64,000 nt of DNA, taken from contig NC_056052.1 in the NCBI RefSeq assembly GCF_004379255.2, positions 5,270,001 through 5,334,000 on the forward strand, in the 5' to 3' direction. Positions 24,654 through 55,712 of the stretch are shown here, one piece after another (position 1 is the first letter of the stretch; each line of letters begins with the position of its first letter). This DNA comes from Salvia splendens. Its lineage: Eukaryota > Streptophyta > Magnoliopsida > Lamiales > Lamiaceae. The translations under genes and the position numbers were made by a program. The notes below the pieces were generated by a model that was given only the letters and a program-made list of their open reading frames with translations, was not told the DNA's origin and ran no database searches.

Positions 24654-25473
24654 TAAGGACGCGTTTTATGGAGTGGAATACATAGGGTTGGAAAAGATAT
24701 CCACCATATTTTGGCCGTTTTATAGAATGGAAAAATAATCCCGGTAAACTGGGATTCACTCCTTTGACCCGAAAAAAATTACTGTTTGTTATGGAAAGTG
24801 GTTGAAATTAAACCTCCCAACTGTAGTGGGTTTAGATTCACTCCTCGGGGCTTGTACCCGAATAGGGGATTACATTTCCCTCAATACCCCTCCATTTATC
24901 TATTTCGGAGAAGAAAATCTGAGAAAGAAGGGTTTTGAAAGTAGTGGGTTTATAAAGAAGCTGGAAGGAAGGCGACGCTGTCTAGATACTCTCCGACCAG
25001 CGGGTCAGGCGTCTTGACGACACTCTTCTCCGGCTAGCAGCTCGCCAGCGTGCCTCATTTCAGGTTACATACGCAATTTTTTGCTTCAAAAAACATATAG
25101 GTTGCACAATTGCGTACTATATTTGACCCGATTCCGGCAGTTGAAGGTCGATTTGCTAAATTTGGTTGTATGTGTTGCCGATTACTTGTTGTATTATGTC
25201 GGAAAATATGTAGATTTGACTGCATTGATGCTGAATGCTCAAACGTCGTAGGTTCTTCCTAGAAATTCCTAAATACCCCAATGTTGAAACTCTAATCACT
25301 ATTTTCATTTTATGATTTAAATGTATTTCCAAAAAATTATGTGAAAATTTGCCCATATGGAATTGGTTTTATGTCTTTTTTTTCGGATCTCTAGAATACT
25401 ATTATTGTGTCAATTGTTGTACACATAAGCTAATCAAAGTTGGTATATTAAAATCAGATATTGTGTTGGGTCC

Positions 25474-26857
25474 ATGGCTGATTCAGCTTCGACGAATGCG
25501 AATGTGATTCAGTTGGTAGAGGATGTTGTGCGTAACTACCGATTTGATACTATTTGTGTGATACTGATTACACTTCGCCACCTAGCACGAACCCGGCGCA
25601 TGAATCGAAGATGAAGTAGAGCCACATTCACACGCCTAGGTCGGGTACCCGATCAAGTAAGACACATTAATCGGCTTGTCGGAGTAAGTGATGTTGCTTG
25701 CTTGGAAAATCTTAGGATGGACCGCAACACCTTCGAGAGGCTTTGTATAATGCTGCGTCAAACAAGGGACTTAGATGATGGGGAGTATGTGATGGTGGAA
25801 GAACAAGTCGCAATGTTCTTGAGTATTTTAGCACATCATAAGAAGATTCGGGTTGTTAAGTTTAATTTTTATGAGATCAAGCTTTACAGTTTCCCACTAT
25901 GTACACGTTGTCTTGCCAGCCGTGCTCAAGCTTCATGCATCTTTCTTGGTAACACCCGAACCCGTGCCTGATGATTGTGATGATAACAGGTGGAAGTGGT
26001 TCAAGGTACGAAACCTTGTGTTCTCTTTTGTGCAATACTCAATCTTAGATTTCTTTGCAAATTTGTGTGTCTAACCTCCATCATATATTATCCAATTGTA
26101 GGGGTGCCTTGGGGCAATTGACGGGACATACATCAACGTACATGTGCCAAATGCCGATAAGCCTAGGTATTGATCCAGGAAGGGTCAAATTTTTACCAGT
26201 ACATTGGTCGCGTGTGATAGACGACTGAGGTTTACTTATGTCTTGGCTGGGTGGGAGGGCTCGACCACTGATGCTAGGGTTTTGCGTAACGCCATCACTC
26301 GATCAAACGGCTTCAAAGTACCTAAAGGTGATTTTTTTAAAATAACTTAAACCATGCACACCTAATTTGCTAGTAAAGATCTAACTTTTTTATTACATAG
26401 AATAGCATTGAATGAGGATGTGATTTCAAGCAACTACTACTTATGCGACAACGACTACTCTAATTGCGATGGTTTCCTAGCTCCATATAAAAGTGTTCGC
26501 TACCATCTCAAAGAGTGGGGTCCAGCCACAGAAGCACCACAAAATGCACGCGAAATCTTTAATATGCGGCATACAAGAGCTCGAAATGTCATTGAACGAG
26601 CTTTCGCTGTATTGAAGATGCGTTGGGGCATTCTACGAACTGCCTCATATTATCCTGTGAAGATTCAGACATGGTTGATCACAGCTTGCTTTCTACTCCA
26701 CAACTATATAAGATCAGAGATGCCTACAGATCCAATCGAAATGAGTGAGAATGATGAGTTCACTGATAATGAGGAGGCAGAGGATGATGGTGTCCTCGGG
26801 GAATTTGTTAATAGGGTGGAGCCTTTGAGATACTCTTCACCTCTTGAATATGTGTAG
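25474..26857 (+). pseudogene. PIF/Harbinger DDE transposase (HARBI1/ALP1-like), inactivated
   Basis: Harbinger transposases are RNase H-fold DDE enzymes that cut and rejoin DNA and need the partner ORF1 protein. From ATG 25474 the frame opens, meets an in-frame TGA at 25612-25614, continues through RMDRNTFERLC and EEQVAMFLSILAHH, then shifts by one base in the T-run near 25866. The shifted frame reads LKLHASFLV and DDNRWKWFK, then an intron (about 26006-26101). The next exon gives GCLGAIDGTYINVHVP (first Asp), a TGA at 26171-26173, then AGWEGSTTDARVL (second Asp). After a second intron-like gap come NVIERAFAVLKMRWG (the Glu) and the acidic C-terminus to 26857. All three catalytic positions are still visible, so decay is by two stops and one frameshift. 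Confidence 0.88.
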
Positions 26858-27587
26858 ATTCAAATTAATTTTACTCTTCCATCTGTTATATGCATTATGG
26901 TGTTGTTACTTACCCAAACTTATGGTCTTTTGTTTCCATCAATTCCTGTAGTGGGCGAATCAAGTTCTATGAGGACTCAAACTGTTTGATGTTGTGTGTT
27001 GCTGAGATGTGGAGACTTGTTATGAGGAAGCTCGAGCACCCTATGCATTTGTAGTGTTTATTTCGATTAATCTCTAGTTTTTAATGGGAAAATTATTTTG
27101 ATCCCAGATTTTCTGCCTTTTAAACTGACATTGTCGACTTTCTTGGAATATTGATGCACATATTTACGTATAATCAGTGGCGAACCCATAAAAAATTCTT
27201 AAAAAGGTCTTAACCATGTAATACTCCTTCCATCACAACAAAATTGAGTCATATTTCTTTACGGGTAATTTATTAATAAGTTGAATTATTTTCGTTTTGA
27301 CAAAAAAGAAATGTTAACCCCTAATATTTTAAAGTCAAACAAAATAAGCATAAATCAATCATTTTTTTCCTTTGTGTATAATAGCAATATCTATTAATTA
27401 ATATGGATTATTACTGGAGCAACATTATAGTTCACTTTCTTTTTTACTTCTTATACATAATTTATAGTATTTGATTCATAAGCAGGTACTTGATGAGAAT
27501 AAATACATTATCATTAACTTCATATGGTTAAGAGCCTACATATCGAATACTTGATGAGCTAAATATATTTACATAAACTTAATATGA

Positions 27588-27830
27588 TTAAGAGCTTACA
27601 TATCGATTACAGCCAGTGACAGATGCAACGTGCCACATATAAAGCACAATCTCGTTGCATCTGACACTACATAGTGCCCAAAATACAACAAAAAAACAAA
27701 AAAAGGCTGTCGAAGTCGGACATAAAGGGAAGCACCCATCTTTTGTTGTAGTCCTCTCGCAGTCGGACATAAAGGGAAGCTTTGTAATAACTGCATAATA
27801 CATTACTCTTCATTTTTTGGTCATACATAG
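27588..27830 (+). pseudogene. 5' piece of a B3-domain gene fragment
   Basis: Plus-strand HPSFVVVLSQSDIKGSFV at about 27732-27785 resembles the start of a B3 DNA-binding domain. It contains a direct repeat of TCGGACATAAAGGGAAGC (27715 and 27761). It stops at the CATAG target site of the LTR retrotransposon, and the B3 sequence resumes after the other LTR at 33891. The match is short, so it is tentative on its own. Confidence 0.4.
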
Positions 27831-28117
27831 TGATACGAGAATATCTCTACGAATATCCTATATATCTATTATTTAGTTTAGTATTGATTTAGCATATCTT
27901 TCCAAATATTCTTAGTATCTTTATTTCTTATTCCCTAAGTCAGAGTAGTCTTATAAATAGGAGATATTGTATTCTTCTATTTCAATCAAGAAATATGAAA
28001 TTATCTTTTTAGCTTTTATCGTATTTTATCTTTTTGCAATCCTAAATTTTGGTTTGATCGACCGGCAAAGCTCCGACGACTGCCTTTTATCGTGTTAAGG
28101 GAACTTCACCCTTAACA

Positions 28118-28838
28118 ATTGGTGCTTCATCGGATCTCATCCTCCGGATTACCACCATTTCGACAGCCACGTCATGTATTGTCGCAACTAACAATATCAG
28201 CCATGGGCGACACCGCGAACAGAAACTGTCCTTGACGCGGAGATGCCATATGCACAGCCGGCCTACCAGGCCTGACAGCCCACCTGCTGGGACCCGCCAT
28301 GGCTATGCGATCAGTCGCCGCTCCCGTTCGTAGATGGACCAGTTCCTCAACAAAATCCTAATGCCGGGTATCCGGGGTTACACCACCAGCCTCATAATGT
28401 CCGCGCCGAGCAGCCCCGTCAACCCTCATGTTGGTACCCACCCAGCTACCGCTGCCCACTGACCTTCCACACCGGTTATCAACAATGGCAGCCGATTCAC
28501 CACCCGCCTGGAGTCCTGCATATGCAGCCTACGTACCAGCCATCGCAGTTCGACCGATCACTGAGTCCCGGCACAGCGTTGCTGCCTGCTGTTGCCCAGC
28601 CACGATCTGGCTCCACGCTCCTGCCTCAACAGTCGCGGGAGTTTATTGATTCGGGGCAGCCGCGTGGTCTCAACAATATTACCAACCTCATGGTTCGATC
28701 GCCCTCCCCTGCCCAACTAGCCGCCGTAAACGATTACAACGAGAAGTTACGTGTGTATAGATTGGACCAAGCCGCCCTGCTCGCCCGTGTGACCGCTCGG
28801 TTTGAGGAGAACATTGATGATGAAAATATAGCTGTGGA
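28118..28838 (+). pseudogene. Internal open frame of the LTR element, left half
   Basis: A GC-rich stretch with a plus-strand open frame from about 28522, rich in Pro, Gln and Ser, then NEKLRVYRLDQAALLARV. It may be a reduced gag-like protein but no zinc knuckle or known gag fold is recognisable. The frame runs up to the hAT target site at 28831-28838 and continues on the far side at 33071, so one open frame was split by that insertion. Confidence 0.45.
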
Positions 28839-28857
28839 TAGGCATGCACAAGGGTCG

Positions 28858-29040
28858 TAAACCGCCGGTTCCGGGCCCGAACCGGCGGTTCAAGGGTCGA
28901 GATATTCACGAACCTGAACCGGCCCGCCTAGCTTCGGACGGTTCCGGTTCAGGTTCAAAAAACCGGCGGGTTACCCGGCGGTTCAAAACCGCCGGTTTTC
29001 GGCTTGAACCGCCGGTTCCGGGCCGGTTCGCCGGTTCCAC
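28858..29040. repeat. hAT subterminal palindrome array, left side
   Basis: Repeated ACCGCCGGTT, ACCGGCGGTT and GGTTCCGG-type motifs in both orientations, very GC-rich compared with the neighbouring poly-T. Subterminal repeats of this kind are transposase-binding sites in Ac-like hAT elements; that role is inferred here. Confidence 0.8.
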
Positions 29041-29741
29041 GATTTTTTTTTTTTTTTGCATTTTTCAACTTTTGAATTTTAATCAAATTACATTACACTT
29101 TTCAAGTTTGTTTTTGTATGCAATGTGAGTAAATAAAATTGAAAAAAATACGGCTAAAGTTGCAATTTTATTGAAATTGCATGTTTACAAATTACACGTT
29201 ACAAGTTACAACAATTACAAATTGAAAACATATGGCGGTCTTGAAGTGTTAAACAAAATTTAAATACAAATGAGACTACTAGTGAAGAACTAATTACAAA
29301 TGACAAGAAACGACGTTGAAGTTCTTAAACGTATAAGTGTATTATATATATACTCTTAACCGGCGAAGAAGATCTTTCTACATAACTAAATTAAGGACGC
29401 CTTTAGCAATTCAACTTTAAATGTTGAGTTTCGTCTAACAATCAACAATTATAGTAGAATTGTCAAAAGTTTCCCTCATTTAGCCGTATAGAGAAATATA
29501 CTTCATCGACTAGAGTATACACAAATACAATTATGTAATTGTATTTGCATATTTTTAAAGTATGAATTAATGGGAAAAAAAAGAAATAAAAGAAAAATGA
29601 CTTGAGCTCAACTTAAATTAAAAATTTAAGTTGAGGTGCCTACGTATCCCAATTGCTCATTTGCATTAGGGAATCAAAGTCCACGTAGTTCTCTTACCTT
29701 ACTTACCTATTTGGCTTGGCCGGCGGCGGTTGACGGTTGGC

Positions 29742-32277
29742 CTAATCTTCATCCCCGGTGAATTCATCTTGTGATCCCTCTTGATGATCATTCCAATAAT
29801 TTTCTTGTTCTCGGACGTCAGCTTTGGCCCAATCATCAAGTAACATCACGGCTTCCATATTTTTCGCCGAGAGCTTACTTCTTGATTCTTCCAAAACGCG
29901 CGAGCCAACACTAAAAGCGGACTCGACGGCGACGGTGGAAGCCGGAACAGAAAAAATCTCCTTGGCCATTGAAGCAAGGATGGGAAAATCTTTCTCGTGG
30001 GTTCCCCACCAATCGAGGACGTCGATTTGGGCGGGAGGAGTAGGACCTTCATCACCAAAGGAAAAGAGTGATTCAAAATATAAATCTAATTCACTGACCA
30101 TACCTGAGGACCTTCCTCCGGTGCTGTAGTTGTATAGGTCGGCTAGTTGGGATTGCGCGTCGGGGTCATCATAATCGGCTTGAAATGCAAAGCCATAGTT
30201 ATGTTGTGGAGGAGGGGGTCTTCTGACTTGGTGAGTGGTGTTATACTTGGTTTCATATTCGGTGTAGAGAGAGCGCAAGTTATACTCGAGGTATTGTTGC
30301 ACAACTGACCGGTCCGGGAGGTTTATTTGAAAGGTTTCTGAGAGGTCGACTCCAAATTCGTCACTGGTATCCGATTGGATTGCTTGAAGGGGACCAAGAT
30401 CAATTGAACTCAAATTGTTATAATAAAAATCTAAAATTCTCGTGGTACCTGCTAATTTCCATTTTGGATCCAATACCTTTGCAATCAAAAACACGTTAGG
30501 AATCTCACTGAAATACTTGAGCCATTTTTCAATCATATAATACAAAACGCACATTAACTCGGGAGAAGAGGAAGCAATTTTCATTGCAGTTTTAAAACCA
30601 AGGGATATGTACATGCAATGCTCCAAAACACGAACAGCAGTGCAATAATAAACACCCGACAATTCAACAGTAGCATTTTTGAAATATTTGAACAATTTAA
30701 ATAAAGCCAAACAGTTATCCCAACAACTATGCGAAAGATATAAATCACGGTAGGGGTTAGTTCTATAAAAATCACATAAAGCATCTTTATGTGTCAAAGT
30801 AGAATTCAGACAATCATATGTCGAATTCCATCTATGAGACACATCCATAGTAAAATTCGTGTATCTGACATTCTTTTGATGGCAATATTTCTTCCATGCT
30901 TTGCCAATAGCTGGCTTTTGATGGATTAATCTAACTGCATTTCTAATAGGAGAAACATGCTTTTGCCATAATTCAAGCGCATCCTGTACACATAAATTTA
31001 AAATATGGCAAATGCATCTTTGATGAAAATACTTACCTCCAATTACCGGTGTACAAGCCACAATCAAATCGGCAATACTTGCGGTGTTGGCAGTTGCATT
31101 ATCAAAACCAATAGAAAATATCTTGTTGCATAACTGAAACTCATTCAACACTTATATAATCAAAGAAGCAATTTCGGGTGCAGTGTGTGGACTTTCAAAT
31201 TCTCTAAAACCAATTAAACGCTTGTTCAAAGTCCAACTGTTGTCTACAAAGTGAACCGTAATACCCATGTATGAATGACGGTTAAAACAATCCGTCCAAA
31301 CATCTGAGCAAATGTTCACCCTGTGGCCCATGTTAACTAAATAACGTGATAATTCTACCTTTTTCTCCAAGCACTACCGAACGGTAGATCGTTGCACGGT
31401 CATTCTACCTATTCTTTTGATTGCTACATTCAACCCACTTTGCATAGTAACCTCAAAACTTTTGTCATCAAAAACATTAAAGGGCATATGCTTCATAGCC
31501 GCCCATCTAGTCATTGAATCATCAAAATTCTTTTTTTCATATTTAAATAGAGGCGCACCTGACGAACCCGAGCCGGCGGGTTGGAAGTTTAGTTGGCTTT
31601 GGGTAGAGGCAGTGCCGCATTCTACCGATTGCTTTGCCACTAAATGGCGACGGAGGGTGCCATATCCACCACCGGCGGTCCATTTGTACACTTTATCGCA
31701 ATAGTTGCAGTAAACATGAAAGTCCGAAGTCTCTTTTTGAGAGTTCGGATCGTGAGGACTTGGAATCACCACCGGGACCCTCTTGTAGTGTTTGACAAAA
31801 ATGTCCGATTTCAAAGCTTTTGTCGGGTTAGCGGGTGCAGGGAGAGCAGGCATCTCCTCATTTCCTCCGGTGCTAGAAGGAATACGAGAATGCGATCTAT
31901 CCTCGTTGTTGTCCGAGTCCGACGATATAGTAACGTCGAACTCCTCATCTTGTTGGGAACGACCTCCCCTACCCCCACCTTGTTGCATTTCAGCAAGTAG
32001 CATGGCGGTCCTTTGATCTTCTTCCATCTACAAATATTATGTACGTAGAAGTTAAAAGTATGAACGCAAAAAAAGTTTAATGAAATTTTGTGCATGTGAA
32101 TTGGAAAACAAATTTTTCATTACTTACTTGCATGCGTTCGGCTGCCAATCGGGAAACCTCTTCCATAACATCTCGACGACTAGGTCGTCGAGATTTTGAG
32201 GGACGCGTAGTGCTTTGATCTTGGGCTATTCCCTTTCCCCGGTCACCACGTCCCGATCCACCACGAGAAGAAGACAT
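29742..32277 (-). pseudogene. hAT transposase (BED finger, RNase H-like core, hATC dimerisation), two in-frame stops
   Basis: Exon 1 is about 32128-32277 and ends at CAA|GTAAGT; exon 2 starts at 32027 after TTTGTAG. The product would be about 810 aa, normal for Ac-like hAT. The BED-type zinc finger includes YCNYCDKVYKWTAGGG and TLRRHL. The RNase H-like core includes ICSDVWTD and GFDNATANT, and then RCICHILNLCVQD and VSHRWNSTYDCL. The C-terminal hATC region is clear: WWGTHEKDFPILASMAKEIF, then VPASTVAVESAFSVGSRVL. The frame is intact except for TAG at 31374-31376 and TAA at 31152-31154, after which it continues without shift. The transposase cannot be made whole from this copy, but the decay looks recent. 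It lies antisense to the retrotransposon that hosts it. Confidence 0.92.
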
Positions 32278-32569
32278 ATTGAATATATTGATAAATGAAA
32301 AGTAATATGGACTTGGAATGAAATATGTATTAAGACGTATAAAAGAAGTGGTAAATTATGAGCACAACAAATATAGTAGTGACTAGTGAGTAGAAAGTGT
32401 AGAATTAAACTTGCGCAATTAGAGAGAATGAGGAGAGAATAGAGAAATGGAGATTGAGAATGAAATTCCGAAAATTCAAGGAATGAGGCAAGGAATAATG
32501 AAGGAGAAGTGGGGGTATTTATAGGAGTAAAATTGGATGAAAAAAAAATTTTTGAAATTTTGAAATCTG

Positions 32570-33055
32570 CCGTAAACCGCCGGTTTACCACCGAAACCGG
32601 CGGTTCAACCCTAAACCGGCGGGTTGGTCACGGGTTGCGTCAGAAAACCACCGGTTTCTGACCGAAAACCGGCGGTTTACGACCGGTTTTGCAGGCCTAA
32701 TCACTGACCCTACGACCTAGCCTCTGAAAAGTGGCCGGAACCGGCGGAAACCGGCTCCCGAACCGCCGGTTTACCCCTTAAACCGGCGGTTTACCCCGCA
32801 AACCGCCGGTTCCAATGGCTATCCTCAACCCCTACGCGAACCCTACGAACCCCTAACCTACGAAACACTGTTCGACCCTTTGAACCGGCGGTTCGAACCG
32901 CCGAACCGCCGGTTCAAAGGTTGAGATATTCACGAACCTGAACCGGCCCTTCCGACCCTTCAACCCGCCTACCGGTTCAAACCGCCGGTTCCGGGTCCGG
33001 TTCCGGTTCATGAACCGGTGGGCCTGAACCGGCGGTTAACCGGCGGGCCGGGTCG
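32570..33055. repeat. hAT subterminal palindrome array, right side
   Basis: More than a dozen AACCGCCGGTTT / AAACCGGCGGTT units, often paired head to head, spread over about 480 bp between the transposase 5' region and the right inverted repeat. It mirrors the left array, but it is longer. Confidence 0.8.
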
Positions 33056-33070
33056 GTTTGTGCATGCCTA

Positions 33071-33598
33071 GCTATGGAGAATATTGATAATACTCCCACA
33101 ATGGTATTGAGTGAGGATATTCCTGAGGACATTAAAGATGTTTCCAACAATGCAACTCGCAATAATAATGGTGTTACTCTTGATGTTCTAGACGACGAGT
33201 CCTGCAAAGTGATCCTCAGGAATGACAATATGAGGCCTCAATTGCTCGTTGAGTCATATGATGACAAAAATGGGGATGGAATTATTGTTCCAACACATCA
33301 TGAATTGAGAATAAAATATGATATAGAGGCTTTGCTTAAGGAGAATGTTGTCGGTTGTGCAGATAACTTTATTCTAGTTAAGAGCCTATCTAATAGTAGA
33401 TTTATTGGAGCAACAAAGCTTATGTTCACCGGCATAATTGAGTCATGGTGTCGATCTAGTATACAAAGTTTGTTCCTTTATCGGCACCGACCGTTTGATC
33501 CAGGAGGGGAGGTCTCGCCAAAGCTTATGTTCGCGACACTCTTGGTTATGTCGTGGTTCTCACCTTGAGGACAAGGTGGATTTTAACCGTGGGGGAGT
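33071..33598 (+). pseudogene. Internal open frame of the LTR element, right half
   Basis: The open frame resumes at the hAT target duplication with MENIDNTPTMVL and continues to a stop near 33566, just before the polypurine tract. It contains an acidic stretch (SEDIPEDIKDV) and no recognised domain. The final part (HLEDKVDFNRGGV in another frame) resembles the end region of plant gypsy-like elements. Confidence 0.45.
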
Positions 33599-33890
33599 TG
33601 ATACGAGAATATCTCTACGAATATCCTATATATCTATTATTTAGTTTAGTATTGATTTAGCATATCTTTCCATATATTCTTAGTATCTTTATTTCTTATT
33701 CCCTAAGTCAGAGTAGTCTTATAAATAGGAGATATTGTATTCTTCTATTTCAATCAAGAAATATGAAATTATCTTTTTAGGTTTTATCGTATTTTATCTT
33801 TTTGCAATCCTAAATTTTGGTTTGATCGACCGGCAAAGCTCCAACAACTGCCTTTTATCGTGTTAAGGGAACTTCACCCTTAACACATAG

Positions 33891-34182
33891 TTTGTCAGAT
33901 TAATATTTTGAAAGATGTTTTGCACTCAGGATTTGCCGTAAGGATTCTGGGACGAACACATTGGCCTTGACTCCTTACAAGGCATCGTTTTTTTCATGGT
34001 TGACTAGAAGATCTGGAAGGTCAAGGTAACCAAGCACAATGACAAGATTCGCGTCACCCAGGGTTGGTCTCGGTTCGTGAGAGACAACAAACTTGCAGAG
34101 GGAAACTGTTGTCACTTTCGTTTGGTTGATGTCACACTTGTCCACTTCTGTATCTCGATCGAGCGTGAAGAAGCACTGTCTA
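33891..34182 (+). pseudogene. B3 DNA-binding-domain fragment inside the Harbinger element
   Basis: B3 domains are plant-specific DNA-binding folds (REM, ARF, LAV families). Plus-strand GFWDEHIGLDS, then KIWKVKVTKHNDKIRV, GWSRFVRDNKLAEG and CCHFRLVDVTLVHFCIS follow the B3 pattern, with the typical W-x-V and G-W-x-x-F-x-x-x-N-x-L. It has a TAA just before GFWDEH and a TAG at about 34006-34008. It ends at a splice donor, CTAG|GTAAGG. With the piece at 27.7 kb it forms one B3 copy cut by the LTR element. It lies between the two Harbinger genes, so a captured host gene fragment is likely. Confidence 0.72.
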
Positions 34183-34374
34183 GGTAAGGATATCTACTAG
34201 TACTAGTTCTCCTATATTTTGTGTTTGTGTTCAACTTCTACTAATGACTCAGTAGCCTAACTTTGGTGAAACTCTCACTTTAAATTTAGGAATGTGCATG
34301 TAATCCATCTATGTTTTAGTTTCCTTATCTGGGTTTTGTGGGGAAATTTTTTTTGGTATTGTACTACCTTGCTC

Positions 34375-34376
<2 letters not shown>

Positions 34377-34451
<75 letters not shown>
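34377..34451. repeat. (TA)n microsatellite
   Basis: An uninterrupted TA dinucleotide run of about 75 bp. The open frames across it on both strands are artefacts of the repeat. Confidence 0.97.
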
Positions 34452-34454
<3 letters not shown>

Positions 34455-34843
34455 AACTGCATTAAACAACATAGATTTTACAAAAGTAATAGGGTTTTTA
34501 TAAGCCATCTTTCATACAAAAAAGTAGCACTCTATAAGGTGCTAAACTTGATGGCTTAATGCAAAAAAGTAGCACACGATTAGGTGCTGTAGTTAGATAG
34601 GAGACATGAAGTTCATAATATTAAACTAGCCACCATAAACTAGACCTATTACCCATAAACTATATGCTTCATAACTTGAACTTCGAGCAATTTAGTTGTT
34701 GTACTTTTCCAAGGCACACCGCACATAAGCTTCCCTTGCTCTTGGAGGAAGGCTCATGAAGTAGTTGAGCCTCTCTATCTTCTCAAGTATGACATCAGAT
34801 GCATCAAACACTTGTCCAAGAGTGAGCCGATGGATAACTCCAA

Positions 34844-35710
34844 TTAGCTCAAACAGCTGCTTCTGTGCTTTCTCGACATCGAATTCATAGCCGATGCGAC
34901 TTGCCAGATGCTCGAGACGAGCGTTTGTGTCATGTGCATCTTCGTAATAACATCCACTAGTCCTTCTATTGGATCATCCATCTTGCGCTTCTTAGCGGAA
35001 TGAGTTGTTGACTGGCTTTCCCTCCTAGAGCTGTTAATACTTTCTCCAGCCGCATTAGGTGGCTCATTGTATGCTCGTGGATCTTCTCCAAATAGGTCTT
35101 CGTGACTCACAGTCAAAGGACTCTCCCTGCCAGGGTTTGTGGATGGTGGACCAGAACCAAATTCATTTGGAATGTTGCCTGTATCTCGGCCCTTATCACC
35201 GGTGGCTCTGTTCTTTCCAAACACAATCTTCCAATCATTGTAGAGTGGCCATGCCTTATTACGTAGTAAGCGAGCACTATTGTCAGCCTGTCAAAAGGAC
35301 ACATAAATTAGCAACAGTGGATAAGTGAGTGTAGGGCAAGTTATGAGTTCTACCTTGATAATCTGATCCCATTGTTTTTATCACAATCGATTTTGTAGTC
35401 GTTATGAACATTAAATCCGACCCCACTCCTGGCTAGGACTAGTGAAAGAGCTCCATATGATTTCTTCCAAATGTGGATCTTGGATTGGATATGTGGATTA
35501 GCTTTCAAATCGCTCCGAGGGAACTCCTGACGCAATGAATCTTCTAACTTCTGAAGGTAACCAGATCTAAAACATTGTCGGACTTCCAGCCTGTCGCGAC
35601 CAGTTCCTTCAGTGTGGCGAGTAGAAATGCCTCCTCTCGGTCGGTCCAACCGCGGCGTGTGCGGTCAGTTTTGTTCTATTTCCGTCCTACACCGTCAACA
35701 TAAGTTATAA
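34844..35710 (-). pseudogene. Harbinger ORF1, MYB/SANT-like DNA-binding protein, frameshifted
   Basis: ORF1 proteins of PIF/Harbinger elements carry a MYB/SANT-like domain that binds element ends and recruits the transposase. On the minus strand the frame starts with RTRRGWTDREEAFLLATLKE and TGWKSDN, slips one base near 35575 into FRSGYLQKLEDSL and IQSKIHIWKKSYGALS, then slips again in the A-run near 35382 so that QWDQIIK ends the exon at a GT. The next exon (about 35288 downward) gives ADNSARLL and WPLYNDWKIVFGKNRATG, then a Ser-rich tail, KKRKMDD and an amphipathic C-terminus ending at 34844. It is convergent with the transposase gene, the usual PIF layout allowing for inserted material. 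Confidence 0.82.
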
Positions 35711-35953
35711 CAAGGATGCACAAGGTAAATAGTTCACAACATCGCACAGCGTACCTCATTTTTTACACAGAACATACATGGATGTGAAGATATTATACTC
35801 ACCTTGGTTTCCGAAACCCGCTTGGCTCCCTCCGTTCGTGCGCATTGACTTTTCCATCACAAATGAACTGAAAATTACACAATCTATGCAGCTTGCAGCG
35901 TGAATCGAAAAAGATACCACTCCTTAAAAACTAAACTATGAATAAAAAATGAA

Positions 35954-37073
35954 GAGTAAAGGCCAAAATTGGTCCTGAACATATAGTCATTTTACGATTT
36001 TGGTCCTAAACATTATCTTTTGGATTTTTTGGTCCTGCACATATGGACATTTGATCATTTTGGTCCTGCACATATGGAAATTTGATCATTTTGGTCCTCC
36101 GTCAACATTTTCGTTAAAAACTAACGGTCAACATTATCTTTTGGATTTTTTGGTCCTGCACATATGGATATTTGATCATTTTGGTCCTGCACATATGGAA
36201 TTTTGATCATTTTGGTCCTCCGTCAACATTTTCGTTAAAAACTAACGGTCAACAGCCGATTTTTGACTAAAACAATGGGTTGGGTCAGGTCGTGTTTGGG
36301 TCGGGTTTGGGTTACACGTTAAGAAAAAAAATAATTATTTTTTATTAATTAAAAAATTATAAAACTTTAATTTTTAGTTATTTTTGTTGATTAAAAATAT
36401 TATAACGACTAAAAACATGATGTTATTATACGATTTAAACATGATATTACACGATAAAATAAAAAATTACCAAATTAAAATAATCATTTTTTAATCAAAA
36501 CAATAAAATTAAAGTATACTAATATTAAATCTATATAATAAAATTAAATAATTAAAAAATTATTTTTAATAAAATCTAAGCATAATATTTTCTTCAAATT
36601 CATGAAAAAATTAATTAAAAAATACTATACTTTAATTTTATTAATTAAAAAATATTAATTAATTTTTTAAGAATATTATGCTTAGATTTTAACGAAAATA
36701 TTATGCTTAGATTTTAAGAAAATATTATTTTTTTCTTAACGTGTAACCCAAACCCGACCCAAACACGACCCGACCCAACCCATTGTTTTAGTCAAAAATC
36801 GACCGTTGACCGTTAGTTTTTAACGAAAATATTGACGGAGGACCAAAATGATCAAAATTCCATATGTGCAGGACCAAAATGATCAAATGTCCATATGTGC
36901 AGGACCAAAAAATCCAAAAGATAATGTTGACCGTTAGTTTTTAACGGAAATATTGACGGAGGACCAAAATGATCAAATGTCCATATGTGCAGGACCAAAA
37001 AATCCAAAAGATAATGTTTAGGACCAAAATCGTAAAATGGCTATATGTTCAGGACCAATTTTGGCCTTTACTC
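35954..37073. mobile_element. Mutator-like non-autonomous element with long terminal inverted repeats
   Basis: Ends GAGTAAAGGCCAAAATTGG and CCAATTTTGGCCTTTACTC are perfect inverted repeats. A perfect 9-bp duplication AAAAATGAA flanks the element (35945-35953 and 37074-37082), diagnostic of Mutator. The inverted arms extend inward for roughly 350-380 bp each, to TAACGTGTAACCC on the right, around an AT-only core. Each arm carries a tandem duplication of about 121 bp. There is no coding capacity; the open frame seen in the left arm is repeat-derived. Confidence 0.92.
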
Positions 37074-37882
37074 AAAAATGAATAAATTCGAACATATTAA
37101 ACTAAAAATAAACCAAAATTCTTCAACAAGATGCTATCATAAAGAACAATACTTAAAACTAACATGATTAGAAAAAAAATAAAATTGAAAAAAAACTGAC
37201 CTTTGCCGTCTTGGGTGTTTCTCAAGGATGCCAAGAGTTAGTAGGCGGGAATTGTGAATTGTTAGGGGGTGAATTTTGGTGCTAAATAGGGTTTGGTTTC
37301 ATCTCATTGAGGACAATTTAGGAATAACAATATTTTAGCTAGGACAGATTGGTCATTACAGAATATATCCACATAGGGGATTACATGTATAAAACGTGTG
37401 TTAGACTAAACTAGTCCATTAACCCTTTCTATAAAACACATGGTATGATTGGATGCTAACATATGTAATCCACATTTATAATCCATATTATAATCCACGG
37501 CACACAAATCCAAACCACTCCATAAAACAAAACACATTGTAAAACAAAACCACGCCCTAACTTAAATTGTCACGTTTAAAAGTACCACAAGCCGAATTAT
37601 TGATGGCCCAAGATAGTTATATTTGGATTCATCATTCATCTAAGTGATAGAGTTATTCTAAAACAAAACACATTGTAATATTAAATGTGTAACCAAATGC
37701 ATCAATCTCAATATATAGTTCTACACAAATAGGATAGCCAAATATAATACACCATTATGATATATCTATGACATACACTTCAAAAACTCAAATAGCATAA
37801 TTTTAAAAATCAAAGCAGAAATTGGATGAAATACAAATAAAATTGTAGAGATGCATATTCTGGTATGACGACATTAGGCAAC

Positions 37883-42614: not shown

Positions 42615-42688
42615 CTGGCGCCGTCTGTGGGAAACAGAGAACCAAATCTGTGATAAAAGCGAGTTTTTGATCCTCTTCCACCAAAAAA

Positions 42689-43894
42689 ATGCATACCAGA
42701 TCACATAATACCCGTGCTTCCGTCCGTGATAACCATGAGGAAGCTAGTCCAGCCCGCAGGTCTGGAAAACAGCCTCGGGAGAAATCTACTTCCAGTTCTC
42801 ACGGAGAAGGAACAAGCCGCTCAAAGACTCATCGCACCGAGTCTTCCCAGCAGCCCGATTTGAACGAGGCTGTCAAGTTGTTTTTGGCCGAGAAGCAGGA
42901 AGAGTTCTTAATTTTCCTGCAAAAGGGCCAAAAGCCGGAGACGAAAACGGTGGATTCTCCCTCCTCATCCAGACATGAAAGTCACTACCGCAGTAGTGCC
43001 GTGTCTTCCAGGAAGAAGAATCCTCAACCCCGACATGTTCCTGTTCCTCCTCGGTACCGGAATCACAGGAGAACTCCATCTCCTCCATACCGAAGAGATG
43101 TCGGGTTCGCCATGTACGGAGCATTGAAGACTCCGTTCTCGGACGATATCACCCGAACTCCCTTGCCACAGAACTACCGAACTCCGTCAATGACTTATGA
43201 CGGGTTAGTGAATCCTCATGACTTCCTGGGACGCTATCAGTATAACATGGCGAATCAGGGTCTCAATGAGGTCCATATGTGCAAGCTGTTTCCCGAGCTG
43301 CTTATCGGGAACGCAAGAAGGTGGTTCGATAGCCTCCCCCAAGGCAGCATTAGATCTTACCGAGATCTAATGGATGCTTTCCACAGGAGGTTCTTTCAGA
43401 AAGCGGAAGCCCGAATCACTTCGGCTCAGCTGCTTTCTATACGTCAAGATCGCGACGAAAAGATCAGCGACTTTATGACGAGATTCCACAAGGAATGCCT
43501 ACAAGTAGATGATCTCAATGATCTACTTGTCATTTCGGCATTCCAAAATGGAATCCTGCCCGGAGCTCTCTACAGAAAGCTCGTGGAATGCAGTCCGCAA
43601 ACAGCTCAAGAGATGTGGGACATTGCGGACCAGTTCTCCCGTGCCTATGAGGCAGACCGTCGCAAACGGTCTTTAGACAGCTCATCCCGAGGAGACAGGA
43701 GGAAGCCCGATCATAGCGATCAGGGACATCCTCGCCGAACTCCTTTTGGCGATCAGGGACATCCTCGCCGAACTCCTTTTGAAAGGATTCAAAGGACTCC
43801 GGTGCAAGACCGATTGGGGCCACGTCTCAATCTTGAGAAACCGCCCGCTCAGTTCGTACCATTGAACAACCGGACTGCTGGAGTGGATTCGTAG
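42689..43894 (+). CDS. gag of the Tat element
   Basis: An intact 401-aa frame that begins 75 bases after the LTR. The N-terminal third is basic and Ser-rich (disordered). The retrotransposon gag core spans about residues 165-320 with PHDFLGRYQYNMANQGLNE, ELLIGNARRWFDSLPQGSI, FHRRFFQKAEARITSAQLL and SDFMTRFHKECLQV. A 30-base direct repeat near 43718-43777 duplicates the segment around GHPRRTPF. The end of the frame passes into an out-of-place junction with pol, so the usual C-terminal zinc knuckle and protease are missing. It would form the particle shell of a non-autonomous element mobilised in trans. Confidence 0.92.
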   Translation: MHTRSHNTRASVRDNHEEASPARRSGKQPREKSTSSSHGEGTSRSKTHRTESSQQPDLNEAVKLFLAEKQEEFLIFLQKGQKPETKTVDSPSSSRHESHYRSSAVSSRKKNPQPRHVPVPPRYRNHRRTPSPPYRRDVGFAMYGALKTPFSDDITRTPLPQNYRTPSMTYDGLVNPHDFLGRYQYNMANQGLNEVHMCKLFPELLIGNARRWFDSLPQGSIRSYRDLMDAFHRRFFQKAEARITSAQLLSIRQDRDEKISDFMTRFHKECLQVDDLNDLLVISAFQNGILPGALYRKLVECSPQTAQEMWDIADQFSRAYEADRRKRSLDSSSRGDRRKPDHSDQGHPRRTPFGDQGHPRRTPFERIQRTPVQDRLGPRLNLEKPPAQFVPLNNRTAGVDS

Positions 43895-44505
43895 ATGGAG
43901 CTTCGAATAAGACGGGAAGTGGAGCTGGTATTCTACTCATCGCTCCCGACGGACAAACGGAGGTAACAAACCGTATCTTGGTGAAAGGGTTAAAAGCTCG
44001 GTTAGAACAAGCCAAAGGACAATGGGTAGAAAATCTCCCTCAAGTCCTATGGTCCTACCGAACTACACCCAAAATCTCCAACGGTGAAACTCCGTACAGT
44101 CTGGTGTACGGCACTGAAGCCGTGATTCCGGTTGAGATCGGCGTACCCAGTCCCCGAACTCTAAATTTCTCCTCAGAAATGAATGATGACGGACTGAGAG
44201 CCGAACTAGATCTTGCCGAAGAAAGAAGAGATTTGGCCTGCATAAAAGCAGCCAAGTACAAGGAGCAAGTAGCCCGGTATTATAACCAAAGGGTGAAAAA
44301 GCTGCAATTTCAAGTGGGAGATCTCGTCTTGAGAAACAATGAAGTAAGCCGAGCAGAAAAGCTGGGCAAACTCAAACCCACATGGGAAGGTCCATATCGG
44401 GTGTCAGAAGTCCTCGGCAAAGGGTCTTATAAATTGACTCACATGTCAGGAGAACAAGTACCCCGAACATGGCACATTTCCAACCTCAAGAAGTTCCATT
44501 TGTAA
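43860..44505 (+). pseudogene. pol remnant: RNase H start fused to integrase C-terminal region
   Basis: In the frame shifted from gag, FVDGASNKTGSGAGILL is the start of an RNase H domain. It is followed directly by TEVTNRILVKGLKARLEQ, the distal integrase region, and then WSYRTTPKISNGETPYSLVY, ARYYNQRVKKLQFQVGDLVL and PRTWHISNLKKFHL with a stop at 44505. Protease, reverse transcriptase, most of RNase H and the integrase catalytic core are absent, so a deletion of several kilobases is inferred. The join lies near GACGGACAAACGGAG at about 43946-43960. The element can move only with enzymes from elsewhere. Confidence 0.88.
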
Positions 44506-45407: not shown

Positions 45408-48256
45408 CTACTGTCCATGGTTGCTAAAGTTGAGCCATCTATTCACAAAATCCTCGTGAAGCCGAGTTCGGCCATTCCGGGCAGCTGAAGAATAAGCAGG
45501 TCGACGAGATGCTCTAATCGACCTACCGCCTCTTCCCTGAGCCCGGGAAGCTCTAGCACCTCGGCGGCGAAGAGTCTCTTCACGAATCATTTGCCGATCT
45601 TGCTCACTCATAGTCACCGCTCCTCTGCGAACTTCAGTCCGTCCTCGTCTTGACGTCTCCGGCTGTTCCTGAGTTCGTTGCTGACTTGGAGTAGGGTTTT
45701 GAGCAAGTGAATCAGAGGTTTGAGCTGGAGTGCGACCATCTGTTGGCGGGAAATGCCTAAGGAATCTCTCGATTGAGGGACGCCGGGAAAGAATGATGTC
45801 GTACCGAGAAGCCCAGCGCCGCAATGATTTCACGACTTGTTGGCAAGCCGAGCTCTCCAGCGCATTGTTCCTCCGGAGTACATGATATTCCTCCCACAGT
45901 TCGTCAACTCGTTCCTGAACTTCAGAGATGGTCATTCCCCCGCGCCTGCAGATGAAATCCTCATACGCAGTCCTCTCAGCGACGGCAGTGTTCAGCTCGG
46001 CCTCCAGATCTTTCTTTTCGGACTCTAAGTCCTTATTGTCGGCCTCCAGCTTCACTAAACAAACCAAGAGTTCGTCATTCTTCATCTGGTCAGCTATGGC
46101 TTTTTTCTCAGCTTCGTCTAAAGCGGAAGAGTACAGCCGCTTCCAGTGAAGTACCTCCAGCTCCTTAAGAGTTAAGAATACAAAGCAGCTATGTCAGTTC
46201 GGCATTTCATTTTACTGAGCAGGTAGTAAACCACAACAGGAGTAAAAGAGAGTATGAAAAGCTATACGAAGACACAAGTGTAGAAAGAAGAATTTTTTCA
46301 TTCATAAGAAAAAAATTTTTTACACAAGGAGGGCTTCAAGGCCATTTTACAAGAAGGAAGAAACTAAACTAAGAGAAGGGAGACGAAATCATACTCCGCC
46401 AGCTTCCTCTCCGGCTCCTCGGTGAGGTTCAGCTTCCTTCTCCTTGTCTGCCTCAGCTTCAGCCTCAGCCTCCCTGCTCCCCCCAGCCTGCTCGGTGCCC
46501 CCATCACCGATCAGCAGCACCTCTTGCTCGGCCTGCCTGTCTCCGGTCTGCTGATCAGGCTGCTCGGTCTCACCCTCTCCGTGGAAAATTGGAGCGGGTG
46601 AAACTGGCCCTAAGGAGGCAAAGATAGCCTCCATATTCTCGTCCCGGTCAGCTCGGCAACTACGAACTCGGTCAGCAGAAAGCAGGACCGAGGACGAAGC
46701 AAGCTCCTCAAGGAGCGGCAGACTCTGGAGACGAGCTGCTATCTCTCGGCCGTACAGCGGCAGGACGACTTCGGGCCCCTGCTCGGCATTATCGGTCATC
46801 AGTTTCAGCAGATCACCGACAAAGGCCGAAAATTGATTGCTCAGAAAGAGTTTCTCCGCGAAAGCACGGAGAACCTCCCCTTGGGCAACCACGGCGGCAG
46901 CATCCCTCCGTTTCGTCTGCTCTCGCTGGATGACGAGCTGGTTTTTGGCAAACTGGGCTTCATCCTGGGCCGAGATCCTAGCAGCTCTGGCCTTCTCAAA
47001 GTCTGCCTTAGCCTGTTCGGCCTGGTGACGAGCAGCCGCCAACTTCCTCTGCATCTCAGCATAGTCGCTGGACGCTTTAGAGAGTTCGACTGCGACGAGC
47101 TTGCTGAGCATGCTATTCCTCTGAAAATGGAAAAAGGAAAGAGTCAACAGAGGGGCCACCAAAAAAACATAGGAAAGAAGCAAAGCCAAAGAATCAAGAA
47201 GAGAAGTTACCTCGGCAAAGTCCGTTGGCCATGCAAAAGGCTCACAGACATGCTCCGAAGGGGGCGCCAAGACGATGTCTCTCTCCGGCGCTCTTGGGGG
47301 CTTCTGGGTCTTCCCCTTCCCCTTTGCCGAAGTGGACTCCGGCTTTTTTGGATCCGAAGAAGAGGTCTTCTGCCTCTTCGGATTCTTCTCGGCATCAGGC
47401 GCCGAGCTGGTAGCCTTCTGTTTCTCCGGCTCCTTAAGCTCGGAGGATTTGCGGCTAATCTTATTTAGCAAGTTCACTGCCAAAAAGCAAGAAAGCAAGG
47501 TTAGTTTTCGCCACAAAAGCAGTAAGGCACAAAAAAGAAGTCCTCACCCTCAGTCTCTTCGTCCGAAGACGAGGAGTCGAACACGAAGTCGCCCTTGACG
47601 AGCTCAGACTCCAGGTACTGCTTCCTAATCATAGGAATCTTATTGAGCTCGCCCTCGAGCTCGTTCAACGGTTCTAACCGAGGATGAGGAATCACGGACT
47701 TCGGCCCTCTCCAGGGAAAGCCCGGAGCCGCTGTCCTATTATAAAAAAAGAAGCGATGTTGCCACTTTGGCCACTTGGTTTTGCAGAAGGCCCTAAAAGG
47801 CTGTAAAGGGATCAAGTAAAACCAAGATCCTTTTCTCTTAAACTGGAAAAAATTAAGGATTGCCCTCAGAGACAGATCCTTATCTAGCCTACGCAGTTCG
47901 GCAGCAAAGGCCGATAAGTGCCTCCAAGAATTCGGAGTCACCTGACCTAAAGGGAGTTGGAAAAAATCAAGCAGCTCTACAAAGGCAGGGGGAAGAGGGA
48001 AATGAAGCCCGCATTCCAAGCCGGCTTCATAAACGGTGGCGTAACCCTCCGGCGGCGAGTCAGCCCTATGAAGGTCGTCGGGAATCGCAACCTTCCCCCC
48101 AGGAAAAAAATATTTTTCGTGTAGGGATATCACAGTATCCTTACTCAAGATGCTGTGAAAATACTCTACGGTCTTCTCCCCGGATTCTTTCCGGCTAGAA
48201 GACCCCTTACCCCCTTTCCTACCGCTACCTGACTCAGAAGAAGAAGAAGAAGACAT
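45408..48256 (-). CDS. Antisense accessory gene of the Tat element (putative gypsy-type transposon domain), four exons
   Basis: Tat-lineage elements such as Grande are known to carry extra antisense genes of unknown role. Here four minus-strand exons join in frame: 47548-48256, 47211-47476, 46395-47120 and 45408-46163, giving about 818 aa. Donors are GTGAGG, GTAACT and GTATGA; acceptors are GGCAG, TTCAG and CTTAAG. Exon 1 holds a Ser-rich start, then SILSKDTVISLHEKYFFPGG and LHFPLPPAFVELLDFFQLP, typical of the putative gypsy-type transposon domain. Exon 2 is basic and Lys/Pro-rich. Exon 3 is a long Ala/Glu/Lys coiled coil. Exon 4 adds another coiled coil and an Arg-rich tail. If exon 3 is not spliced, a TGA at 46389-46391 ends the protein at about 568 aa. 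All frames are open, which argues for selection or recency. Function is unknown. Confidence 0.72.
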
Positions 48257-48380
48257 GGTTCTTACTCTTTGAAAGTCTGAAGAAATTCTGAAGAAATTCT
48301 TGAAAGCGGAAGGAAATTTTTACGCAAAAGAGAGAGAATGCAGAAGAAGCAATAGCAAAAGTGTTCAAATGATGAAGAAA

Positions 48381-50185: not shown

Positions 50186-51530
50186 CTATTAGAGCATCCA
50201 CAGTGGGACAGATGTCCCAACAGACTTCCCAAAAACACCTCCTGCCACGTCATAAGGACATCCTACTACACTACCACGTTATAAGGACATCCCACTGCAT
50301 AATGACGGACATCCCGACGGAAATCCCGACGGACATCCACAATAATAAAAATTCATAAATTCACAAAATTAAACAATTTACAGAATTAAAGTTTCGACAC
50401 GAATACGGAGAAAATGGAACCACTTTATTTAAAACAAAAAACATACATAATTATTAAAAAAAATACATAGTTACAAAAAATAACGTCAAGCTTCGACAAA
50501 TGTTGCCCCCGTCTCACTCCTCGTCGTCCCCGTCGTCAGTCCCGGCGCCACTATCGGGCAGGGGTGTCATCCCCAAATCGCGTCTCATAGTGTCGATGAC
50601 ATCATTCAACATGATCTTGTATAAGGGATCAGTCGCTGCATACCACTTGTCCATGATGTCGAGCATACTCTGCATTAGATGCACACGGGTGAGATTGTTG
50701 AGCTCGGGAGTGACCATGGACGGAGATTCCGATTGGACCTCGTGGGACTCGCCGGCGCTTCCCCTAGCCATCCGCATCGCGGTCTTTTGCCCAACCAGGC
50801 GACGGCGACGGGAAGACGATTGAGGGGTCGGGAACTCTGCCTCGGCGTCAGGGAGTTCGTGGGAACCGGCACTGTTGCTGTACTCCCTGGAGGCGTTGAT
50901 CTTCGTCCGCTTCGGCCAGCCAGCTTCAACACCTGCACTAAACTTGGCGGAAGTCTGCACCACAAGATAGACCTCCCAATATTTGAACTCCCCGAAACCC
51001 AATTCACTGCCGGGGTACTGCTGGTGAGACAAAAGCTTCACATCATCAGCGGACATGCCGCTTGATGCAGTGCGGAGGTTGTTTTGGTAGATGCTGGCAA
51101 ATCGGCTAAGCTGCCTCATCAGCCGCTCTCATTATTTCTGGCATTGCTCTCCATCGTGAGGCTTCCCACCTGGCGTTTTGAATTGGAGGTAGCTTTGGCT
51201 AATGTGCCACCACATTCTGTCGATGTGCTGGTTAGCCCCGACGTAGGGATCATCGACTACACCGACCCAGGCCTTCGCCAGCGCGACACATTCCCCTATG
51301 CTCCAGATAGTCCTTTTTCTCCCGCTGGCTTCTTCCCCCACCCCCTCGGCCCCCGCCCCACCCTCGTTCCCCGCACGCGAGGACGAGGTAGTGCCCTTGC
51401 CCTTCCCTCTCCCCTGCTTCCGCGTCCTCCCTGCCGCCGGTTGCATCTCAGTGGGAGACTTTGTGATCGAAGATAGTCCCAACTCCCCAAAAGAGAAAGT
51501 CTCGATGCCTGTGAAAAAGTTTAGAATTTT
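50186..51530 (-). pseudogene. PIF/Harbinger ORF1 (MYB/SANT protein) fragment, two adjacent stops
   Basis: The minus strand from about 51507 reads ETFSFGELGLSSITKSPTEM, a GC-rich Gly/Ser/Arg linker, and the SANT-like domain WSIGECVALAKAWVGVVDDP and VGANQHIDRMWWHISQSY. It continues EQCQK, then two consecutive stops TAA TGA (51130-51135), then in the same frame ERLMRQLSRFASIYQ, a Ser/Arg-rich segment (SSRRRRLVGQKTAMRMA) and a C-terminal helix, ending at 50514. Relatives have an Arg-Trp at the stop pair. An element end GAGCATCCACAGTGGGACA is at 50192. No transposase or right terminus is present, so this is a broken element. Confidence 0.8.
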
Positions 51531-52350
51531 AATAAAAGATTATTACTAATATTCACATATATACATAAGAAGTGAGTTTATTAATATAATAATTGGGTAT
51601 TAATAGAGAAATGAAAATAGAAATTGTACTCCTAGTTTATTGATTACTCCATTTGTACTCCTAGTTTATTGATTACTCCAATTTTCACAATGACACCGTG
51701 CAACACGCAATATGTCGATCCAAATCAAGTTAATAGATTCAATTCGGCTCGAGCAACACGCAATATGTCCATCAAAAAAATCAAGTTAATTGATTCCATT
51801 CGGCTAGAGAATTTCACATCATAAAAGTGAAAAATATATCATCCGCTAACAAATTTTATGTTAAAAGACTAAGGAAGAGAATTCATCCAAAAAGACTAGT
51901 CTACTATAGAATACATTTAGTCTATAAACCCATATTGATTGTTCTCCCCATTAAGGCCATCTTTATAAGCAACAACTCAACCCAACCTAACACAATCATT
52001 TATTTTTTTAATATTTAATTAATTTTTATTTCATTCACATCATCTTCCACATCATCAATATTTATCCAACCAGCGGTGGATGTAGAAATGAACGTAAGTA
52101 GAGGCTAAATTTTTAAAATTTTATTTAAAAATAAATTTATTAGGTAATTTAGAATATTAATAGGGACTTTATATAATGATATGTACTCCATCCGTTCCAT
52201 AATAGTAGAGACATTTCTTTCCGGCACGGAGATTTGAGAAAAATTGTGTTAAGTGAATTAAGTAAAAGAAAAATAAAGTAGGAAATGAAAAAGATAGAAG
52301 ATAAAGAGAGAATAAAGTAAAAGAGAGAATAAAGTAAAAGAGAAATAATA
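51531..52350. other. Intergenic with duplicated short segments
   Basis: GTACTCCTAGTTTATTGATTACTCCA occurs twice in tandem near 51630-51680. TCAAGTTAATnGATTC with CATTCGGCT recurs near 51725-51810. A degenerate MITE end (CTCCATCCGTTCCATAATAG) lies at about 52187. No gene is seen. Confidence 0.45.

Positions 52351-53760: not shown

Positions 53761-55712
<1,952 letters not shown>

Follow-up and report, generated by a model that had tools for sequence, protein, structure and literature searches.

A PIF/Harbinger transposon lineage in Salvia splendens that probably has long kept captured transcription-factor genes

We analysed a nest of transposable elements in a 64,000-nucleotide stretch of the Salvia splendens genome (the window, C21:5270001-5334000 of the assembly; coordinates below are window positions unless a contig is named). 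The outermost element of the nest belongs to the PIF/Harbinger superfamily. It is probably a dead copy with an internal deletion, from a PIF/Harbinger lineage in which captured transcription-factor genes have long been retained. One gene order recurs in an element of the window family (L014) and in three diverged families, A, C and D: transposase, a second Myb/SANT gene (Myb2), one or two genes encoding a double B3 domain, and the Myb-type open reading frame 1 (ORF1, here also Myb1; not found in D). In the window family, in family A and its twin B, and in family C, the genes have moved together as a unit bounded by matching ends. Comparison of families A, C and D shows purifying selection on the extra genes.

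Gene order shared by diverged families

A genome search with the first 844 bases of the window element gave seven matches at six other places, all six of which were fetched and two extended. Five of these six siblings start at the first base of the element, and the 5' end of L011 is eroded. Exact target triplets are present at both ends of L012 (TAA), L014 (TTA) and L009, the copy on C11 (CAA). In L013 the left triplet is TTA and the right one TAA, a single mismatch, and no 3' end of L010 was found in the fetched sequence. Identity among the copies is about 95% (about 91% for L013), and their 3' ends read CCACTCCATAAAACGCGTCC in L011, L012 and L014, with a close variant in L009 and L013. The window, C11, C2 and C14 copies each have individual flanks and an exact triplet. 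The C11 copy (L009/L015) also carries a 3.7-kb insertion in a TA repeat; the same repeat lies at 34377-34452 in the window.

Sibling L014 is 7793 bp long, has the target duplication TTA/TTA and holds the transposase gene (+), Myb2 (-; PF12776, E 6e-8), a double-B3 gene (+) whose predicted protein is P0033 (PF02362, E 2.4e-21) and the Myb ORF1 (-). Its second B3 domain is interrupted by about 344 bp of inserted sequence, and the exon concerned also contains a stop, so the copy is not intact.

Family A on C12 (9219 bp) and its twin B on C7 (9222 bp) have the ends GGGCTCGTTTGGTTGGCATG/CATGCCAACCAAACGAGCCC and are 99.7% identical. Since these near-identical copies have different target triplets (GTA for A, CTA for B), the element moved recently. 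The order in family A is transposase, Myb2, B3a, B3b, Myb1, with Pfam matches to DDE_Tnp_4 (3.5e-20), PF12776 twice (3e-7 for ORF1, above the cutoff, and 6.8e-8) and PF02362 twice (3.9e-19 and 2e-20). Long open pieces span conserved parts of all five genes and GT-AG borders were found in all three introns inspected; judged by its sequence, family A may be autonomous. Family C on C19 has the gene order of A, the triplet TTA at both ends and a 3' end with four mismatches to that of A. Family D on C11 follows the order of A for transposase, Myb2 and B3; Myb1 was not found and the 3' end was not identified in the sequence read. Family A is far diverged from the window family, with identities of 45-72% in transposase pieces, 39% in Myb1, 38-47% in Myb2 and 26-39% in B3 pieces of at least 75 residues.

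Selection on the element genes

Ratios of nonsynonymous to synonymous divergence (dN/dS) were calculated by the Nei-Gojobori method, leaving out every codon with a gap or stop (0-2 stop codons in each pair). For the pairs formed by families A, C and D, dN/dS was 0.15-0.17 for the transposase, 0.23-0.29 for Myb2, 0.18-0.25 for B3a and 0.19-0.20 for B3b (three pairs each), and 0.13 for Myb1 (A-C only), at dS values of 0.46-1.05. The B3b gene at further loci gave 0.16-0.32; this comparison covered pairs with dS 0.03-1.6, left out 9 of 21 loci (minus-strand match) and dropped 0-3 stop codons per pair.

Genome-wide linkage of B3 and Harbinger genes

Searched against proteins, P0033 had four matches: itself, P0031, P0034 (S. 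splendens, 38%) and P0035 (Salvia hispanica, 38%). Both P0031 and P0033 are encoded inside sibling elements (L009 and L014), which rules them out as donor genes. P0034 is encoded at L023, with 100% identity except in the first exon (92.6%), beside Myb1 and Myb2. All three named S. splendens B3 proteins that were found thus lie at loci with Harbinger genes. Searched against the genome, P0033 gave 158 matches (421 candidates, 150 of them scored), and the best 150 rows were used. Among the matches listed, many are 45-56% identical, often occurring as pairs about 1.5 kb apart, with equal scores on different chromosomes. No close donor gene for the B3 cargo was found among the proteins matched, and the best genome match listed outside the window family is 56% identical.

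Of the 30 best B3 loci, 26 have a match to transposase, Myb1 or Myb2 in their 1.5-kb flanks, compared with none in the 50 kb of the window outside the nest, a small control. In a second comparison, a 151-residue exon of the family A transposase served as query, and the best 150 places were scored out of 8025 candidates. A listed B3 row lies within 10 kb of 70 of these 150 places. Over 1000 random relocations of the B3 rows, for which contig extents were approximated by the largest coordinate seen, the mean was 2.7 and the maximum 6. Conversely, a listed transposase lies within 10 kb of 86 of the 150 B3 rows, or 69 of the 124 merged B3 loci. By transposase rank, 61 linked places are among the first 99 and 9 among the last 51.

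Eight transposase places have equal scores and the same 205-residue open frame (C1:5100389, C1:14922937, C12:6211516, C14:2669262, C18:1418657, C18:10649812, C21:23248011 and C620:8911). They are perhaps a recently active family.

Several observations weigh against a lineage that has kept these genes over a long time. The 30 B3 loci are not independent: several are near-identical, two belong to one element and six rows are the window's own family. Four of the 30 (L026, L036, L040 and L042) have no Harbinger match in their flanks. Of these, L042 lies within family D, with transposase and Myb2 further out, and L040 is its 99.7% twin; no element read accounts for L026 and L036. For 80 of the 150 transposase places there is no listed B3 within 10 kb; both lists comprise their best 150 entries, but elements without B3 probably exist. 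Where a B3 is near, the nearest is on the transposase strand in 31 of 70 cases and on the opposite strand in 39 of 70, so that a second gene arrangement exists. Within the window family, B3 dN/dS was 0.92 (L014-L009) and 0.71 (L009-L013), on few changes, and 3.0 for L014 and the window copy (1 synonymous and 11 other changes). The lowest of the ten B3 pairs were 0.38 (L014-L013) and 0.44 (L009-L012), the seven pairs other than L014-L009, L014-L013 and L009-L013 having values of 0.44-3.0, and transposase values were 0.47-1.34 over 15 pairs. Because constraint on the window-family B3 is weak or absent, selection is seen between families and not clearly among the decaying copies of the window family. 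Finally, the genome comparisons cover one plant genome, that of S. splendens.

Alternative origins of the extra genes

The alternative that survives best, though we regard it as unlikely, is ordinary transduplication, in which a fragment of a host B3 gene was picked up once as passive cargo, as in Pack-PIFs and Pifvine-3, and is decaying with the element. Gene capture by PIF elements is already known, as described in the available parts of PMC8903248 and PMC2528002, and the window-family B3 copies carry stops and have mostly near-neutral dN/dS. Passive cargo is hard to reconcile with the same genes in the same order in family A, whose B3 pieces are just 26-39% identical to those of the window family, and in families C and D, nor does it fit an A/C/D dN/dS of about 0.2 at dS near 1. 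No close donor was found among the proteins, and 56% is the best identity outside the window family among the genome matches listed. Pack-PIFs and transduplications consist of gene sequence between PIF ends without transposase; here the transposase accompanies the cargo. The published Pack-PIF pipeline, according to the accessible portion of PMC8903248, classes anything with a transposase match as autonomous. A single recent capture was dropped as an explanation in view of the diverged B3 loci across the genome and the same cargo order in A, C and D.

Somewhat less likely still is that several Harbinger families independently captured one host Myb2-B3 block, with selection acting on the host block. 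The opposite-strand arrangement at 39 of 70 transposase places would fit such a history, and P0035 of S. hispanica, 41-45% identical to element B3 in its best rows, could be a host gene. Against repeated capture stands the agreement among A, C and D in the order and orientation of all genes found, the transposase included. The transposase dS of 0.62-0.82 also resembles in size the B3 dS of 0.46-1.05 in the same pairs, and no Harbinger-free host block appears among the 30 best B3 loci, L026 and L036 aside.

That a host gene cluster was spread by segmental duplication, with Harbinger genes nearby by accident, is very improbable: S. splendens is a tetraploid with many homoeologue duplications reported (available text of PMC8408255), but the identity of A and B ends within about 10 bases of the terminal repeats, at triplets GTA and CTA, and the window, C11, C2 and C14 copies have their own flanks and exact triplets, together with a clean empty site, which refutes this origin for the copies read.

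The window copy is a deletion derivative

The host element of the nest is a decayed copy with the following features.

24654..24656, 5' target duplication TAA of the Harbinger element; a single TAA in the empty site L049
24657..37557, + strand, PIF/Harbinger element including insertions; 12901 bp, or 5712 bp minus the long terminal repeat (LTR) and Mutator-like units
25474..26857 (start approximate), + strand, broken transposase gene, DDE_Tnp_4; in-frame stops
27712..27729 (edges approximate), + strand, 18-bp templated filler at the internal deletion junction; common to sibling L012
27733..27783, + strand, B3 gene exon remnant on the left side of the LTR element (HPSFVVVLSQSDIKGSF); a GT donor comes next, at 27784
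33915..34187, + strand, last B3 gene exon remnant, from the second B3 domain to the stop codon; two in-frame stops
34695..35675, - strand, broken Myb/SANT-like ORF1 (Myb1); PF12776 E 5e-4, 21.4 bits against a cutoff of 23.6
37529..37557, private 29-bp 3' end replacing the family end GCGTCC, by comparison to siblings
37558..37560, 3' target duplication TAA of the Harbinger element; a single TAA in the empty site L049

The limits of the element were established from an empty site. The best non-self match of the left flank (300 bases) in the genome is C22:4004352-4004634 at 70%. This site, L049, reads ...CATCCTATAACTTAAATCATC... with one TAA and no insert, followed by sequence like the right flank of the window. 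Because L049 holds the uninterrupted target, it fixes the Harbinger insertion to the base, at 24657-37557 plus one TAA. It also rules out that the ends of the outer element were paired by chance; the terminal 60-mers have a common 14-bp match, equalled by 6 of 5000 random pairs. The available part of PMC8408255 describes S. splendens as tetraploid, with 22 pseudochromosomes and consecutively numbered homoeologues. Because this numbering puts chr21 and chr22 side by side, C22 is the probable homoeologue of C21. The Harbinger insertion either postdates the homoeologue split or was lost cleanly from C22.

The genes of the window copy are broken. The transposase matches DDE_Tnp_4 at 26366-26854 (E 2.3e-10). 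The right B3 remnant codes at 33915-34184 for the later part of a B3 domain, and the left remnant for its start. The right remnant matches PF02362 with E 1.3e-9 for the open piece and 1e-11 with X placed at the stops, and the B3 remnants align to P0031 and P0033 with 70% and 63% identity over the parts covered. The LTR element lies in the intron between the two exon remnants, whose splice signals are the GT at 27784 and an AG at 33913-33914. As this intron was kept, the B3 fragment would derive from genomic DNA and not from cDNA.

According to the preliminary description, a normal PIF element of 5.7 kb is left once the insertions are subtracted. What remains, 5712 bp, is instead a deletion derivative, about 2 kb short of L014 and carrying the remnant of a B3 gene. 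One deletion of about 2 kb, which removes Myb2 and the first B3 domain and contains the same 18-bp filler copied from nearby, is common to the window copy and L012. Because the two copies share both deletion and filler, the 5.7-kb derivative was itself mobile. The same description had named two findings that would speak against it: family copies with other boundaries, and intact copies without one of the two genes. Intact copies of this kind were not seen among those read. Differing ends were: five of the six siblings are readable at the 3' end, and these differ from the window copy, which after CCACTCCATAAAAC continues with 29 bases unlike the sibling ends. The outer boundary is nevertheless right by the empty site, and a misplaced right boundary is thereby ruled out, the 29 bases being a private replacement. 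Since 20 bases at 37523-37542, partly in this private end, recur at 37659-37678 in the flank, 136 bases off, it was likely made by local copying from the flank during repair.

Insertions in the window copy

Three further elements lie within the Harbinger copy.

27826..27830, left target duplication CATAG of the LTR element; siblings read through the LTR target
27831..33885, + strand, LTR retrotransposon carrying the hAT element; LTRs at 27831-28117 and 33599-33885
33886..33890, right target duplication CATAG of the LTR element; siblings read through the LTR target
28831..28838 and 33071-33078, 8-bp target duplication of the hAT element, left GCTGTGGA and right GCTATGGA; one mismatch
28839..33070, - strand, hAT element of 4232 bp with a broken transposase; BED finger, dimerisation region
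35945..35953, right copy 37074-37082, 9-bp target duplication AAAAATGAA of the Mutator-like element; siblings read through the Mutator target
35954..37073, Mutator-like element with long inverted arms; empty site in 5/5 siblings holding the site

All four target duplications are readable at the places first given for them, and the assignments to PIF/Harbinger (TAA), an LTR element (CATAG), hAT (8 bp, one mismatch) and a Mutator-like element (perfect 9-bp AAAAATGAA) were borne out. Among 400000 random pairs of places within the window, a duplication alone arose by chance in 7856 pairs for 3 bp, 669 for 5 bp, 320 for 8 bp (at most one mismatch) and 6 for 9 bp. Stronger evidence than these rates comes from empty sites, read on C22 for the Harbinger element and in siblings for two of its insertions. 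The LTR target is uninterrupted in all three sibling copies that hold that stretch (L009, L013 and L014; the other three fetched copies are without it). The Mutator target is uninterrupted in all five that hold the site (L009, L011, L012, L013 and L014; L010 is without it). For the hAT insertion, the evidence consists of the element ends and the 8-bp duplication.

The two LTRs are 287 bp each with four differences (98.6% identical), and the LTR element minus the hAT unit is 1815 bp long. An LTR pair and a 5-bp duplication are present, as in Ty3/gypsy elements; the label 'gypsy-like' is not upheld by an element of just 1815 bp whose two long open pieces match no Pfam family at E up to 1. It looks non-autonomous.

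The hAT element has a perfect 13-bp terminal repeat (TAGGCATGCACAA at both ends). Its transposase is 69% identical to a 771-residue relative across the whole query, with a Dimer_Tnp_hAT match (E 2.8e-21) and a BED finger at 20.5 bits against a cutoff of 20.6. All 14 window copies of AACCGGCGGTT or its reverse complement AACCGCCGGTT lie inside the hAT element, in two terminal clusters of the subterminal motif AACCGSCGGTT, which are possibly transposase binding sites. The arms of the Mutator-like element, 388 and 355 bp long, align at 89%, and no open frame of at least 120 residues was found within 35954-37073.

What had been called a four-layer nest thus comprises four real insertions at a depth of three (Harbinger, LTR element, hAT), with the Mutator-like element beside the LTR element. 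The proposed order, Harbinger before LTR element before hAT, agrees with sibling identities of about 95% against 98.6% for the LTRs and with the position of the hAT. Harbinger copies differ by about 5% and the LTR pair by 1.4%, which probably places the LTR element after the Harbinger burst; the hAT, lying inside the LTR element, is later again.

Other features of the window

Remains of another LTR element lie at 42671-44505, where a gag region (Retrotrans_gag, E 3.4e-17) overlaps a frame weakly matching a Tf2-1-like SH3 domain (7.9e-7, slightly short of the cutoff), a pattern as if most of pol had been deleted. A 'putative gypsy type transposon' match (Transposase_28, E 4.9e-10) is found at 47504-48319 (-). 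Two adjoining open frames at 50514-51539 (-) have no Pfam match and resemble ORF1 as it occurs in other Harbinger elements. An open piece at 55250-55735 (-) contains a PAN domain (E 3.7e-10) and is perhaps part of a receptor-kinase-like gene.

Discussion

On balance, we favor the further-reaching view that a PIF/Harbinger clade permanently recruited a second Myb/SANT gene and one or two double-B3 genes as its own machinery, for example for gene activation or escape from silencing, and that some annotated plant 'B3 transcription factors' are transposon genes. The host element of the nest would be a member of a lineage with four or five genes: DDE transposase (+), Myb2 (-), one or two tandem double-B3 genes (+) and ORF1 (-). 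It would have landed on C21 already about 2 kb of cargo short. The LTR element would next have entered the remaining B3 intron, and the hAT then the LTR element. The Mutator-like element would have entered the 3' part of the Harbinger copy, with no order relative to the LTR element implied.

The transposase and the Myb ORF1 would act on the short ends and create the 3-bp duplication, as the basic PIF/Harbinger machinery. The B3 and Myb2 genes would have been captured long ago from the plant host and have become part of the element. By family, the Myb2 and double-B3 proteins are predicted to be DNA-binding. More speculatively, they might attach to the element's DNA and activate the genes it carries, possibly in reproductive tissue or to counteract silencing. 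Our leading guess as to function, a tentative one drawn from gene content, is that they act on element DNA, raising its own expression or countering silencing. This is the simplest idea because the genes travel with the element and are conserved; alternative roles are end binding, host manipulation or residual cargo. In VANDAL elements of the Mutator superfamily, the DNA-binding anti-silencing protein VANC acts on its own element; it is unrelated to the B3 and Myb2 proteins.

Two-gene PIF/Harbinger elements are alike in DDE_Tnp_4, a Myb/SANT ORF1, short terminal repeats starting with GGGC or GGAC and a 3-bp duplication. In contrast to those, the elements described here have, between the usual genes, an additional Myb/SANT gene together with a single double-B3 gene or a pair of them, in L014 as in families A, C and D, and reach 7.8 kb (L014) and 9.2 kb (A and B). 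The Pack-PIF elements of maize and rice (Gisby and Catoni 2022, PMC8903248) likewise have PIF-type ends around gene-derived sequence. In the available part of that paper they are non-autonomous, whereas here the cargo travels with a transposase and is selected between families. Pifvine-3 of grapevine is described in terms of transduplications, with no long-term selection claimed in the accessible text of PMC2528002. The same portion reports KAONASHI MULEs (Mutator-like elements) and CACTA-ULP elements, in which a once-cellular domain likewise recurs as an extra gene of cut-and-paste transposons; there it is a ULP1 protease in other superfamilies, and here DNA-binding proteins in PIF/Harbinger. 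As far as the available parts of PMC8903248 and PMC2528002 go, gene capture by PIF elements and recurrent capture of a ULP1 domain in other superfamilies are thus known. A literature search with most subscription journals outside its reach found no description of B3 or extra genes in Harbinger elements.

The usual description of PIF/Harbinger elements gives them two genes, and gene capture by plant transposons is mostly described as the shuffling of gene fragments. Here, captured-looking transcription-factor genes hold the same place across several element families and are under selection, so that one can test whether a cut-and-paste transposon benefits from having a host regulator among its genes. 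For three annotated S. splendens B3 proteins, SASPL_130781, SASPL_137349 and LOC121753190, the coding locus also holds Harbinger genes, and for two of the three it lies within an element read in this analysis. B3 annotations that are encoded by transposons would distort gene-family counts and expression studies.

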